From a virus, in the IMG/VR virus record IMGVR_UViG_3300020411_002386, positions 1-51,293 of that record: a DNA stretch of 51,293 nt; one strand, given 5' to 3'. Positions 8,030 to 42,417 of this stretch are shown in pieces. A model generated the notes under the pieces. That model saw only the letters and a program-made list of their open reading frames with translations. It made no database searches and was not told where the DNA came from. The number at the start of each line of letters is the position of its first letter. Positions within the stretch are counted from its first letter, which is position 1. A program made the position numbers and the translations under genes.

Positions 8030-8093
8030 TCGATATTTCCTCTTTTTTAAAGTTTCTAATAGTGTCACTTTTCTGTTTCTAGGCAAGTGACCA

Positions 8094-8196
8094 GCCCAAC
8101 AGCATTATGCCGCTAAGGCGTAACCTGAAGGTGCAAAATTATCGTTTGCAGTTACTTTTTGTAGACTAAAATACCAGTCGATCCTGTTTCGCCCCC
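8094..8196 (-). ncRNA. ssrA: tmRNA, coding (5') piece of a permuted two-piece ssrA
   Basis: From 8196 the minus strand reads GGGGGCGAAACAGGATCGAC, the conserved tmRNA 5' end, in which GGGGGCG pairs with CGCCTCC of the acceptor piece (7 bp, with G3.U70, the alanine identity pair). The tag frame at 8149-8105 encodes ANDNFAPSGYALAA then TAA, and the stop lies in the 3-base loop of a hairpin at 8094-8119 (helix 5). TCTACAA after the D-like arm pairs with TTGTAGA of the acceptor piece (helix 2). Only 47 bases separate the 5' end from the resume codon GCA, so there seems to be no room for pseudoknot 1. A further hairpin, GTCACTT/AAGTGAC at 8064-8091, may mark the 3' end. Confidence 0.9.
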
Positions 8197-8207
8197 ATCA
8201 TAAATGC

Positions 8208-8440
8208 ACTAGCCAATAAAGTATTGATTAAAACCAAAAACTTCAAAGATCATAAAAGTAAAGAATAAAAGCATTATAGCCCATAAAATCATTTTACCAC
8301 TAAAGTTAGTAGAAGCCAATCTTATTCCTATAAACTCATTTCCTAATACTCGTAACATTAATTCAAATTCATTTGAATCATTTTTAATTTCAACAATTTT
8401 TTCTTTTTTCTCTTCTGCCATTTTCTTTCCAATGCATTTA
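8208..8440 (-). other. Intervening segment of the pre-tmRNA, with terminal inverted repeats
   Basis: The segment between the encoded CCA (8441) and the first G of the coding piece (8196) begins TAAATGCATT (8440-8431) and ends AGTGCATTTA (8210-8201). These pair over 10 bp, with one G.U, and would extend the acceptor stem in the precursor, as expected for a permuted tmRNA removed by RNase P and 3' processing. Unusually, the loop holds a complete ORF. Confidence 0.75.
8209..8421 (-). CDS. Single-span membrane protein encoded inside the tmRNA intervening segment
   Basis: 70 aa from the ATG at 8421, with GGAAAG a few bases upstream. The N-terminal 40 residues are charged (MAEEKKEKIVEIKNDSNEFE), followed by one membrane helix (MILWAIMLLFFTFMIFEVFGF). 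Its stop is 13 bases before the mature tmRNA coding piece. Translation must happen on the precursor or on a separate transcript, because tmRNA maturation would cut it out at both ends. No family recognised. Confidence 0.7.
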   Translation of the reverse strand: MAEEKKEKIVEIKNDSNEFELMLRVLGNEFIGIRLASTNFSGKMILWAIMLLFFTFMIFEVFGFNQYFIG

Positions 8441-8493
8441 TGGTGGAGGCGTTGGGTATCGCACCCAAGTCCTGTATATCCTCGATCATCTAC
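8441..8493 (-). ncRNA. ssrA: tmRNA, acceptor (3') piece of a permuted two-piece ssrA
   Basis: The minus strand has TTGTAGA (pairs with the coding piece), then a T-arm at 8468-8452 (stem TTGGG/CCCAA, loop TGCGATA), acceptor strand CGCCTCC at 8451-8445, A73 and an encoded CCA at 8443-8441. The acceptor strand pairs fully with GGGGGCG at 8196-8190. The order acceptor-first, tag-last is that of circularly permuted ssrA in alphaproteobacteria. The 5' end lies just after a TATAAATA late promoter, so transcription may start at or very near the mature end. Confidence 0.88.
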
Positions 8494-8498
8494 AAGTC

Positions 8499-8506
8499 TA
8501 TTTATA
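8499..8506 (-). promoter_or_regulatory. T4-type late promoter of the tmRNA operon
   Basis: TATAAATA on the minus strand matches the consensus recognised by gp55-type late sigma, whose gene is at 47954-48547. Initiation 5-7 bases downstream would fall at about 8493, the 5' end of the acceptor RNA. It is right after the terminator of the BMP gene. Confidence 0.8.
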
Positions 8507-8512
8507 TTATAT

Positions 8513-8537
8513 AAAAAAGGGTGACAAAAAGCCACCC
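8513..8537 (-). terminator. Rho-independent terminator after the BMP-family gene
   Basis: On the minus strand, GGGTGGC-TTTTT-GTCACCC followed by TTTTTT: a 7-position stem with one mismatch and a U-run. It separates the BMP transcript from the tmRNA operon. Its core is nearly the same as the hairpin at 9671-9696. Confidence 0.85.
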
Positions 8538-8562
8538 CTAATTTAATTTATTTTATTATTTT

Positions 8563-11480: not shown

Positions 11481-11567
11481 TGGCTTTGGGGGGTGGATTC
11501 GAACCACCACGTCCTTAAGGACAATACATGAACAGTGCATCGCGTCTACCGTTTCCGCCACCCCAAA
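11481..11567 (-). tRNA. Chimeric class II tRNA: Leu-like body, anticodon GUU (Asn)
   Basis: Cloverleaf: acceptor TTTGGGG/CCCCAAA, D-arm GCG..GCG with GAAACGGTAGAC loop, anticodon arm ATGCA-CTGTTCA-TGTAT (one G.U), long variable arm TGTCC-TTAA-GGACGT, T-arm GGTGG-TTCGAAT-CCACC, G73 and encoded CCA (11483-11481). D-arm and variable arm match bacterial tRNA-Leu almost exactly. The loop gives anticodon GTT (11533-11531), and U1-A72 and G73 are those of tRNA-Asn, not Leu (A73). Base 37 is C, where a purine is almost universal. It sits 9 bases after the aminoacyl-tRNA-synthetase-like gene on the same strand. Confidence 0.88.
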
Positions 11568-39763: not shown

Positions 39764-40748
39764 AGCTTTGATTCCTTTTTACCTTACGTAGATTATCATC
39801 AATTTTAATTTCATTAACTTTTATAGGATCTATTTCATAAGCGCATTTATGAGTTTTTGAAAATTCTTTTATATTCATGTCACCAGTATAATATAATACA
39901 CAGCGACTAGCCACCTTTCTACATAATGCCAAATCTGCTCCTGTTTCTGTAGCTACTTTTTCTATTTGTTCAGGATAAACTCTATCACCACAGTTTTCCA
40001 TTTTAAACATATTATGCTTACGACCAGCAAAAAAGAATTCACCATCGTCAGTATATTCTATTAGATCACCACTATGCCAATAATCACTTTGCCCTTTCCA
40101 TTTACATGCCCATTCAATAGTACCGTCATCATGATTAATATTTTTATAATCTATTTGTGGATGTATATTATTAAAGTGATAGATATCTTGTTTTTCAGTA
40201 CTCATAATAATTGGAGGGACTTCAGTGCTACCATATGCAGTTGTTACCTTTTGCGCTCCTTTTGCTCTGAGGTCTTCCATAAGTCCATTAGGAGTTACAT
40301 CACTACCAACTTGCATATGTTTAAGATTACTTAAATCTAAAGATTTCCATTTTTTATGTCTATGCCATGTTTTCCAAACATTAGGAAGTATTAACGTATA
40401 AGTTGGATTAATTTCTTTTATTTTATCTGGATAATTTGCTGCCGATGTTTCATAAAAAACATCACAATTAGTCACTGCACCTAGATATAAACTCATACTA
40501 GTAAAGCCAATACCTCTAGGATTATATAATGCTAATATAGTACTATTAGATGATAGATCTAGATACTCAGCATTATACTCAGCTATTGATCGCATTAACT
40601 TAGCATCGTGTACATATTTTTTAGGTTCACCTGTAGTACCACTAGTACTTACAGTTATATTCCAATCATTTAAATAATTTATTATTGCGGATCGAACTAT
40701 ATCATTATTACTTTCAAGATACTCAATACCGTCAATATAGATTTTCAT
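39747..40748 (-). CDS. ANL-superfamily adenylate-forming ligase, N-terminally reduced
   Basis: 333 aa. STSGTTGEPKK (34-44) is the ATP loop, TAYGSTEVPP the A5 motif, YWHSGDLIEYTDDGEFFFAGRKHNMFKM covers A7-A8, and LRKVKRNQ the end (A10-like Lys). Full acyl-CoA ligases or NRPS A-domains have about 130 more residues before the ATP loop; here it starts 33 residues before it. Likely activates a carboxylic acid as acyl-AMP. Overlaps the halogenase by 17 bases, so the two are probably one pathway. Confidence 0.85.
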   Translation of the reverse strand: MKIYIDGIEYLESNNDIVRSAIINYLNDWNITVSTSGTTGEPKKYVHDAKLMRSIAEYNAEYLDLSSNSTILALYNPRGIGFTSMSLYLGAVTNCDVFYETSAANYPDKIKEINPTYTLILPNVWKTWHRHKKWKSLDLSNLKHMQVGSDVTPNGLMEDLRAKGAQKVTTAYGSTEVPPIIMSTEKQDIYHFNNIHPQIDYKNINHDDGTIEWACKWKGQSDYWHSGDLIEYTDDGEFFFAGRKHNMFKMENCGDRVYPEQIEKVATETGADLALCRKVASRCVLYYTGDMNIKEFSKTHKCAYEIDPIKVNEIKIDDNLRKVKRNQSFEATA

Positions 40749-42417
40749 TTAATACCTCCTCATGAGATTTATTATTGTATAAATTTGTTTTACACCAATC
40801 GTATATGTTGGGAGCATAATCAGCTAAAGCTTTGCTTTTTTGTTTGGTGTTTATAAAATTTGCTTCTGCTAATGGTAATAGTTTTTCATCTATATCTAGT
40901 GTACATAATTCATTATCCCATTGCTGAAAATATAATTGTTGTTGAGCCCATTGAACATCAGTAAATATATTTGTAGCATTATATCCTATAGGATCTCTAT
41001 AACCTGCCCAATTCTTTTCTTTGTGATTATGTATACGTCCATACTCGCTCCATTTTTTCCATATGTTATGATCTGTTCTTTTAGATAAAGTAAAATGATA
41101 TGAAATAAAATCTGCAACTTGTTTTTCTAATTTTTGGACTTGTCGTGTATAACCTTTCTTAGCACTAGATGGAATTATATCTCTATCTTTATATTTGCCT
41201 ATAATTCGATCTAACATTTGTATACAAATTTGAGCTATATGTATACTATTAGCCTCCATAGGATCAACAAAACCTTGGCCCATACCAACACCAACTACAT
41301 TATTAATAAATGCTTCTTCATACCAACCGGAATCCCAACTAATATATCTAGGTTCTTTTATAAATTCATAACCATCCCAGTATTGTATAAACTTTTCTCT
41401 AGCTGTATCTTTATCTTCACAATCTTCATCAAAAATATATCCAGATCCCATACGACTATAAAGCGGTATGATAAAATTCCAGCCGTTGTCTTGACAATAA
41501 CTTTGGGTGTATGGTTTCATTTCTAGATATGGATCTTTATATTTTACCGGAGCCACCCATGAAGATTGTGTAGGAACATGCTGACATGTATGCCATTTCG
41601 TAGGCATATTTTTCATTAATAATCTAGTAAAACCAGAACAATCTGCATAAAGATCTGCTTGTAATACTTTACCATCAGTTAAATGAACAGACTTAATATT
41701 TTGTTTATCGTCTAATCTTATATTTTGAATATGGCCTTTTATCCATTCAACATTGTTAGGTATAGCTACCTTGTCTCTAATTATAGTAGGAAATTTTTCT
41801 GCGTCCACATGCCAAGCATAACTATGTGGTGCCATATATTGTCTTCTCTGAACATTACCTGTAAGAAGATCACCATTGTTATCATATGGGGATTTATTAT
41901 TAATAGCAAAATAATACGTATCACTCATATAAGCTGCGGCTTCGTGCCACGAATATTTTCCTCTTTTTACTAATTCTAACCAATAGTCATAGTTTTTATT
42001 ATCAACTCCAGGAGATCCATTATTACAATAGAAATAATCATCAGCCTCAATTGGATTAAAAAAAGACTTTTTAAAAGTATTAGTATTATATGAAAGGGTA
42101 AAGTGATTAAATTGTCGCTCCCAACTTGGAGCATTCCAATGATCAGTTACATGTTTTTTAGGACTTTCACTATTCCATCCTATAAAGTAATTACCAAGTT
42201 TATAGATAGCATTAGTTTCTTGCATCCATGTTTTTTCATCTATCTCAAGCCAATTAAATAAATCACCTAGATATGGTAATGTACTTTCACCTACACCTAA
42301 TATAGGAACTTGAGGTGATTCTATTAAAGTAACTTTTATATCATTATGTCGTTTAGCAATTAAAGCTGCCGTAGCCCATCCTACCACACCACCACCGACA
42401 ACAAGTAAACTTTTCAT
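40732..42417 (-). CDS. Flavin-dependent (tryptophan-type) halogenase
   Basis: 561 aa. VVGGGVVGWATAA (6-18) FAD loop, GVGEST (41-46), K73 in YKLGNYFIGW (the halide-carrying lysine position, K79 in PrnA), ADCSGFTRLL, GWNFIIP (312-318) and GFVDPMEANSI with E388 (E346 in PrnA). The family WxWxIP motif is WxFxIP here. Chlorinates or brominates an aromatic substrate with FADH2 and O2. A marine cyanophage halogenase (VirX1) is known, so the family is established in phages, but this one is fused to no reductase and sits with a ligase. Confidence 0.92.
   Translation of the reverse strand: MKSLLVVGGGVVGWATAALIAKRHNDIKVTLIESPQVPILGVGESTLPYLGDLFNWLEIDEKTWMQETNAIYKLGNYFIGWNSESPKKHVTDHWNAPSWERQFNHFTLSYNTNTFKKSFFNPIEADDYFYCNNGSPGVDNKNYDYWLELVKRGKYSWHEAAAYMSDTYYFAINNKSPYDNNGDLLTGNVQRRQYMAPHSYAWHVDAEKFPTIIRDKVAIPNNVEWIKGHIQNIRLDDKQNIKSVHLTDGKVLQADLYADCSGFTRLLMKNMPTKWHTCQHVPTQSSWVAPVKYKDPYLEMKPYTQSYCQDNGWNFIIPLYSRMGSGYIFDEDCEDKDTAREKFIQYWDGYEFIKEPRYISWDSGWYEEAFINNVVGVGMGQGFVDPMEANSIHIAQICIQMLDRIIGKYKDRDIIPSSAKKGYTRQVQKLEKQVADFISYHFTLSKRTDHNIWKKWSEYGRIHNHKEKNWAGYRDPIGYNATNIFTDVQWAQQQLYFQQWDNELCTLDIDEKLLPLAEANFINTKQKSKALADYAPNIYDWCKTNLYNNKSHEEVLNENLY

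Follow-up and report, generated by a model that had tools for sequence, protein, structure and literature searches.

The stretch of DNA analysed here (the window) is a viral contig of 51,293 bases, possibly incomplete. Covariance model analysis of the window showed a match to RF04321 (tmRNA_permuted) at 8493-8105 on the minus strand with 57.1 bits against a gathering score of 47, covering the full length of the model (positions 1-213) with an E value of 1.5e-8 over the whole window, in agreement with the initial annotation of a permuted two-piece tmRNA gene at this locus. The T-arm, CCA, 7-bp acceptor stem with G3.U70, helix-2 halves and tag named in that annotation could all be read directly from the sequence (Table 1). 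The acceptor piece lies 5' of the coding piece and carries CCA, and the tag reading frame ANDNFAPSGYALAA ends in AA followed by a stop, while the 3' end of the coding piece perhaps lies beyond 8105, near 8060. RF01849 (alpha_tmRNA; gathering cut-off 50 bits), the model initially put forward for this gene, gave no match over its cut-off in the window and was not listed there at E<=10, a search in which one overlapping match of the same clan was dropped; two relatives (L002 and L006) did reach the cut-off. ARAGORN run on the window did not report the permuted tmRNA at 8493-8105. A tmRNA gene of the group I intron form was considered and rejected, as the T-loop is uninterrupted and no intron family exceeded its cut-off in the window.

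Table 1. Features of the permuted tmRNA locus, in window coordinates
Feature	Position	Strand	Remarks
Intrinsic terminator-like hairpin of upstream gene	8517..8539	-	9 pairs, T tail; 1 found, shuffles 0.4
TATAAATA, T4-late-promoter-like	8499..8506	-	read directly; overlaps TATAAT at 8511-8506
Acceptor piece	8441..8493	-	helix-2 3' strand, T-arm, acceptor 3' strand, ACCA; RF04321 match and direct reading
Helix-2 halves	8493-8472 and 8177-8161	-	paired in covariance model alignment
T-arm UUGGG/CCCAA	8468-8452	-	read directly
Acceptor 3' strand CGCCUCC	8451-8445	-	followed by ACCA at 8444-8441
Intervening sequence (IVS), 244 nt	8197..8440	-	absent from mature tmRNA in family model
UAAAUGCA, 5' strand of acceptor-extending helix	8433..8440	-	complementary to UGCAUUUA
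Cargo gene, 70 codons, family A	8209..8421	-	predicted helical membrane protein P0001; GGAAAG upstream of ATG
UGCAUUUA, 3' strand of acceptor-extending helix	8201..8208	-	complementary to UAAAUGCA
Acceptor 5' strand GGGGGCG	8196-8190	-	7 pairs with CGCCUCC, G3.U70
Coding piece	8105..8196	-	acceptor 5' strand, D-arm, helix 2, tag, stop; RF04321 match
Tag reading frame ANDNFAPSGYALAA and stop	8105..8149	-	stop codon 8107-8105

T4-like replication genes encoding a DNA polymerase, SbcCD-like nuclease subunits, a DnaB-like helicase, a UvsX-like recombinase and a clamp loader were identified on the same record and corroborate the phage setting of the tmRNA; no SmpB was found in this record. A candidate for the late promoter claimed upstream of the gene is TATAAATA at 8506-8499, the only promoter-like element there, with no sigma-70-type site listed at that position; the T4 late promoter motif is given as TATAAAT in the methods of PMC9004378. 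Among the viral relatives listed, TATAAATA was found upstream of 136 of 211 genes (4.1 in shuffles) and a sigma-70-like site upstream of 144 of 211 (13.7 in shuffles). Elsewhere in the window, a protein encoded at 40732-42417 and adjoining the replication genes matches a PHROGs family annotated as tryptophan halogenase, and an 87-nt tRNA-Asn (GUU) gene is located at 11481-11567. PHROGs families, including single-strand binding protein and exonuclease, were matched by 15 of 20 proteins neighbouring tmRNA loci with nested genes.

The initial account of a phage-borne tmRNA thus stands, although it overlooked a 70-codon open reading frame (ORF) between the two pieces. None of 200 shuffles of the IVS contained an ORF as long (p 0.005), and relatives of the encoded protein, P0001, were found at seven loci in a tblastn-confirmed search. 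At one of these (L006) the cargo gene occupies the same position inside a permuted tmRNA, and comparison with the window copy gave a pN/pS of 0.16 (synonymous 0.63, nonsynonymous 0.10), the first, second and third codon positions differing 10, 3 and 29 times. Comparisons of the window cargo with five other nested copies gave pN/pS values of 0.24-0.34. The records of the window and L006 each contained a single family A match, which in both is the nested copy. Purifying selection on the window cargo gene is well supported by these sequence comparisons, as are the nesting and the coding nature of the ORF, and we infer that the cargo is functional. P0001 matched no Pfam family and showed one weak match to PHROGs (E 0.067); its predicted structure is a weak model (pLDDT 67.6, pTM 0.39) with two long helices. 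A homing endonuclease as cargo was rejected, as Pfam yielded no family for P0001 and none above cut-off for nine other cargoes.

The coding-piece start GGGGGCGAANNNGGATCGAC served as search pattern in viral contigs, along with two more restrictive variants, and was also used on bacterial genomes; all loci were therefore chosen by pattern and their frequencies are not estimates for nature. Among the matches listed, a permuted gene could be reconstructed at 264 of 277 viral loci and 99 of 117 bacterial ones, the remaining 13 and 18 being missed by the finder and outside all counts. The 213 distinct viral spacers among these matches had a median of 95 nt and a maximum of 499, with 56 of at least 150 nt, and the 98 distinct bacterial spacers a median of 34 nt and a maximum of 116, with none of at least 150 nt. 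As a control, RF04321 matched 359 of 385 genomes of one bacterial class, and the longest span among 150 of its places listed there was 351 nt, versus 389 in the window. Twelve cargo families were defined by mutual similarity, and ORFs belonging to them were present in 67 of the 213 viral spacers and in 47 of the 56 with at least 150 nt (among matches listed), so that the nested arrangement recurs with a dozen families and is widespread in viral contigs, which the initial annotation did not record. Such nesting was not seen in the bacterial permuted tmRNAs examined, among the matches listed. Cargo ORFs occupy 73-93% of the IVS, depending on the family, and summed pN/pS was 0.13-0.52 in ten families including A (G2 and G3 are not among them); the final codons of the ORFs in E, H, J, D and G1 are also part of the tmRNA, where conservation of the RNA adds to this count. 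Single ORFs in the 100-180 nt IVS classes were longer than chance in 14 of 80 cases at p<0.05; since most are not, the case for nesting in spacers of this size rests on conservation. A clear Shine-Dalgarno sequence is missing at several cargo starts (present in 0 of 2 in each of families C and D and in 1 of 3 in I). A long spacer can contain two genes, as at L033 and L581. A motif like (I/V)PKYLSG was common to several spacer ORFs (the first of L033, L077, L096, L247, L254 and L540), from which several cargo families may form one superfamily. Outside the main counts, a second pattern (UUUCGAC D-arm) yielded 78 stretches, of which 69 had a permuted tmRNA and 9 were missed; the spacer reached at least 115 nt in 10 of the 69, and one further family J copy was seen.

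Searches started from cargo protein alignments, in which loci are not picked by the presence of a tmRNA, gave 329 relatives for family B and at least 470 for family A, 80 of each being kept. For family B, the script placed 59 of 80 inside a tmRNA, 6 just upstream of one and 15 without; reading 12 of these 15 by eye placed four more inside a tmRNA, and three more ran directly into the coding piece on a contig cut upstream. For family A, 10 of 80 were inside a tmRNA, 17 had a tmRNA elsewhere in the locus and 53 were without, among the matches listed. One of the latter (L581) was in fact inside a spacer of about 440 nt, with a compensatory change in its acceptor stem (GGGGGAG/CTCCTCC). These locus counts indicate that members of the cargo families also occur outside tmRNAs, frequently with a tmRNA nearby. 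In family B two frames form a unit, in which a short frame ending like ...GDSDEEPLSTRGK precedes and overlaps the membrane-protein frame, and both frames are seemingly conserved (L068, L126, L352, L415, L442 and others). Two free-standing family B genes (L415, L418) have a leader resembling an acceptor-piece remnant, such as might be left by a cargo that had moved out of a tmRNA.

No INPHARED record was matched by families A, B, C, F and I, and we consequently found no cultured phage with a nested cargo of these families. The window tmRNA had no blastn match in INPHARED; the coding pieces of its relatives had none in one search and short matches to eight records in another, mostly roseophages and rhizobial or Rhodobacter phages. 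Seven of these eight have spacers of 93-111 nt with no annotated gene in them, and the eighth, an unverified faecal clone without annotation, has a 14-nt spacer. Families A and B matched 0 of 289 genomes each in one class, a search that had no positive control genome. ARAGORN detected 2 of 15 viral permuted tmRNAs with spacers of at least 200 nt and 81 of 85 bacterial ones with spacers below 50 nt, and its misses among long spacers are part of why surveys miss such genes.

The ends of the spacer are themselves conserved in pairing. Among the matches listed, 178 viral spacers of at least 40 nt showed a mean uninterrupted run of 10.47 pairs between their ends, compared with 4.43 (sd 0.14) after ends were swapped among genes, and 31 bacterial spacers a run of 4.97 versus 2.88 when swapped. 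The IVS ends covary, and 48 of 56 viral IVSs of at least 150 nt retain the end helix, again among matches listed. In the minimum free energy fold of the window this helix joins the acceptor stem, giving 8 plus 14 pairs around one mismatch, with a fold z-score of -5.3. As modelled, the spacer-end helix looks like a processing hairpin with the cargo gene in its loop.

In its form, the window tmRNA departs from bacterial relatives by having 47 nt of coding piece before the tag, where alphaproteobacterial permuted tmRNAs have 82-96 nt among the matches listed. About 35 nt present in 96 of 96 listed bacterial relatives are absent here, a shortening that the initial annotation did not record, and fewer than 70 nt before the tag were found in 28 of 180 viral genes (the window and 27 others) and 0 of 96 bacterial ones among the matches listed. 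With this stretch absent, full activity of the window tmRNA is not assured; it presumably corresponds to the place of the first tmRNA pseudoknot. Among the listed ORF-bearing viral genes, G3.U70 is present in 67 of 67 and the tag ends in AA in 53 of 58, indicating that tmRNAs with nested cargo are kept functional in form; they may also be active in tagging. The T-loop has GGC in place of UUC in 98 of 98 bacterial relatives listed, most of their records being titled alphaproteobacterial, and TGC or GGC in 67 of 67 listed ORF-bearing phage genes. This shared non-canonical T-loop is in line with an alphaproteobacterial origin of the phage tmRNA; of the capture from such a host that had been proposed, the affinity fits, the T-loop comparison being the evidence for it.

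The window feature belongs to the known family RF04321, and carriage of permuted tmRNA by phages is already published. The paper on the ssrA gene of phage Melnitz is that of Buchholz et al. 2022. The accessible portion of PMC9004378 describes the two-piece ssrA of phage Melnitz and reports 53 two-piece tmRNAs in phage genomes suggested by ARAGORN; these Melnitz and pelagimyophage genes are likewise permuted tmRNAs of marine T4-like phages but, unlike the window, no spacer gene is mentioned for them in that portion. The HTVC008M match of 210 nt implies a short spacer. Permuted alphaproteobacterial tmRNAs (RF04321/RF01849) share with the window the gene order, G3.U70, the non-canonical T-loop, a tag of the type ANDN...AA and CCA, but have a median IVS of 34 nt among the matches listed, as opposed to 244 nt with a conserved protein gene. 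In the sections available, the tmRNA database article (PMC11915505) puts the number of phage sequences at 79; it also mentions two permuted genes with unusual spacers, one containing a tRNA and the other a repeat. The former, from GCA-2688965 sp002688965, also has a gene in the IVS, although this is a single tRNA-Ala gene in a metagenome-assembled genome labelled archaeal, as opposed to protein genes of 12 families in phages. The same sections report group I introns encoding homing endonucleases in 36 of 883 tmRNA genes, likewise a protein gene inside a tmRNA gene, but located in the T-loop and spliced out, whereas in the window the T-loop is intact and the gene lies in the permutation spacer. 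Our literature search, which covered few subscription papers, found no report of a protein gene in a permuted-tmRNA spacer. Within its reach, the use of this spacer to accommodate varying small protein genes, which sequence supports well, is unreported.

Several interpretations of this arrangement can be considered. An ordinary phage permuted tmRNA with an accidental ORF in an AT-rich spacer would be compatible with the weakness of length as evidence in IVSs below 180 nt, but is contradicted by the purifying selection and the surplus of third-position changes seen in ten families, A among them, and by the recovery of families A and B, inside and outside tmRNAs, through protein searches, leaving this explanation with next to no credibility. 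Another reading, in which the phage copy acts against host trans-translation as a decoy or inhibitor and its spacer does no more than house a gene, is also very improbable. The loss of sequence ahead of the tag in 28 of 180 viral forms listed could be read in this way, and expression of the tag-less tmRNA of phage DS6A inhibits the tmRNA of E. coli, according to the available sections of PMC11915505; the retention of the AA tag end and of G3.U70 in the listed ORF-bearing genes argues against it.

Alternatively, the spacer may be a safe harbour for selfish or mobile small genes, their nesting being unlinked to tmRNA function or regulation. The many dissimilar cargoes, the free family members (6 of 80 family B loci have the gene just upstream of a tmRNA, and 17 of 80 listed family A loci have a tmRNA elsewhere in the locus) and the precedent of homing endonuclease genes in tmRNA group I introns (PMC11915505, available sections) all agree with this reading. 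We nevertheless consider it distinctly unlikely, as the ORFs leave little of the slot unused, most long IVSs listed retain the end helix, and ten representative cargoes had no Pfam match above cut-off, so that none looks like a nuclease or recombinase.

The explanation that we favour, and consider likely, is a phage permuted tmRNA whose IVS serves as a cargo slot, co-transcribed with the tmRNA and probably freed by its maturation. An alpha-type circularly permuted tmRNA gene of a T4-like marine phage would have had its IVS turned into a slot for small protein genes. The locus would form one transcription unit, with a single transcript from a promoter upstream of 8499, in which the paired IVS ends would lengthen the acceptor helix into a long hairpin presenting tRNA-like ends. 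By analogy with established tRNA and tmRNA processing, RNase P would cut at G8196 and 3' trimming would reach the CCA at 8441, yielding the two-piece tmRNA and freeing the IVS as a short mRNA. The 70-aa membrane protein would be translated from the precursor or from the freed fragment, and tmRNA and protein would in either case be co-expressed.

A further role of the spacer slot as a regulatory device is conceivable, although we regard it as rather unlikely. The cargo stop codon lies inside the mature tmRNA in 19 of 67 listed ORF-bearing spacers (families E, H, J, G1, D and one F), for example AUGAUGGGGGCGAAAUAG, which reads MMGAK-stop. Excision of the tmRNA would turn such a cargo message into a non-stop mRNA, a substrate of that same tmRNA, and tmRNA production would thereby both silence the nested cargo and mark it with the tag. 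The window cargo keeps its stop (8211-8209) within the IVS, so that the link there would be restricted to co-expression and helix-gated translation. The capacity of the spacer to carry genes may represent a testable advantage for permuted tmRNA, and the arrangement adds overlooked small phage proteins hidden within an RNA gene.
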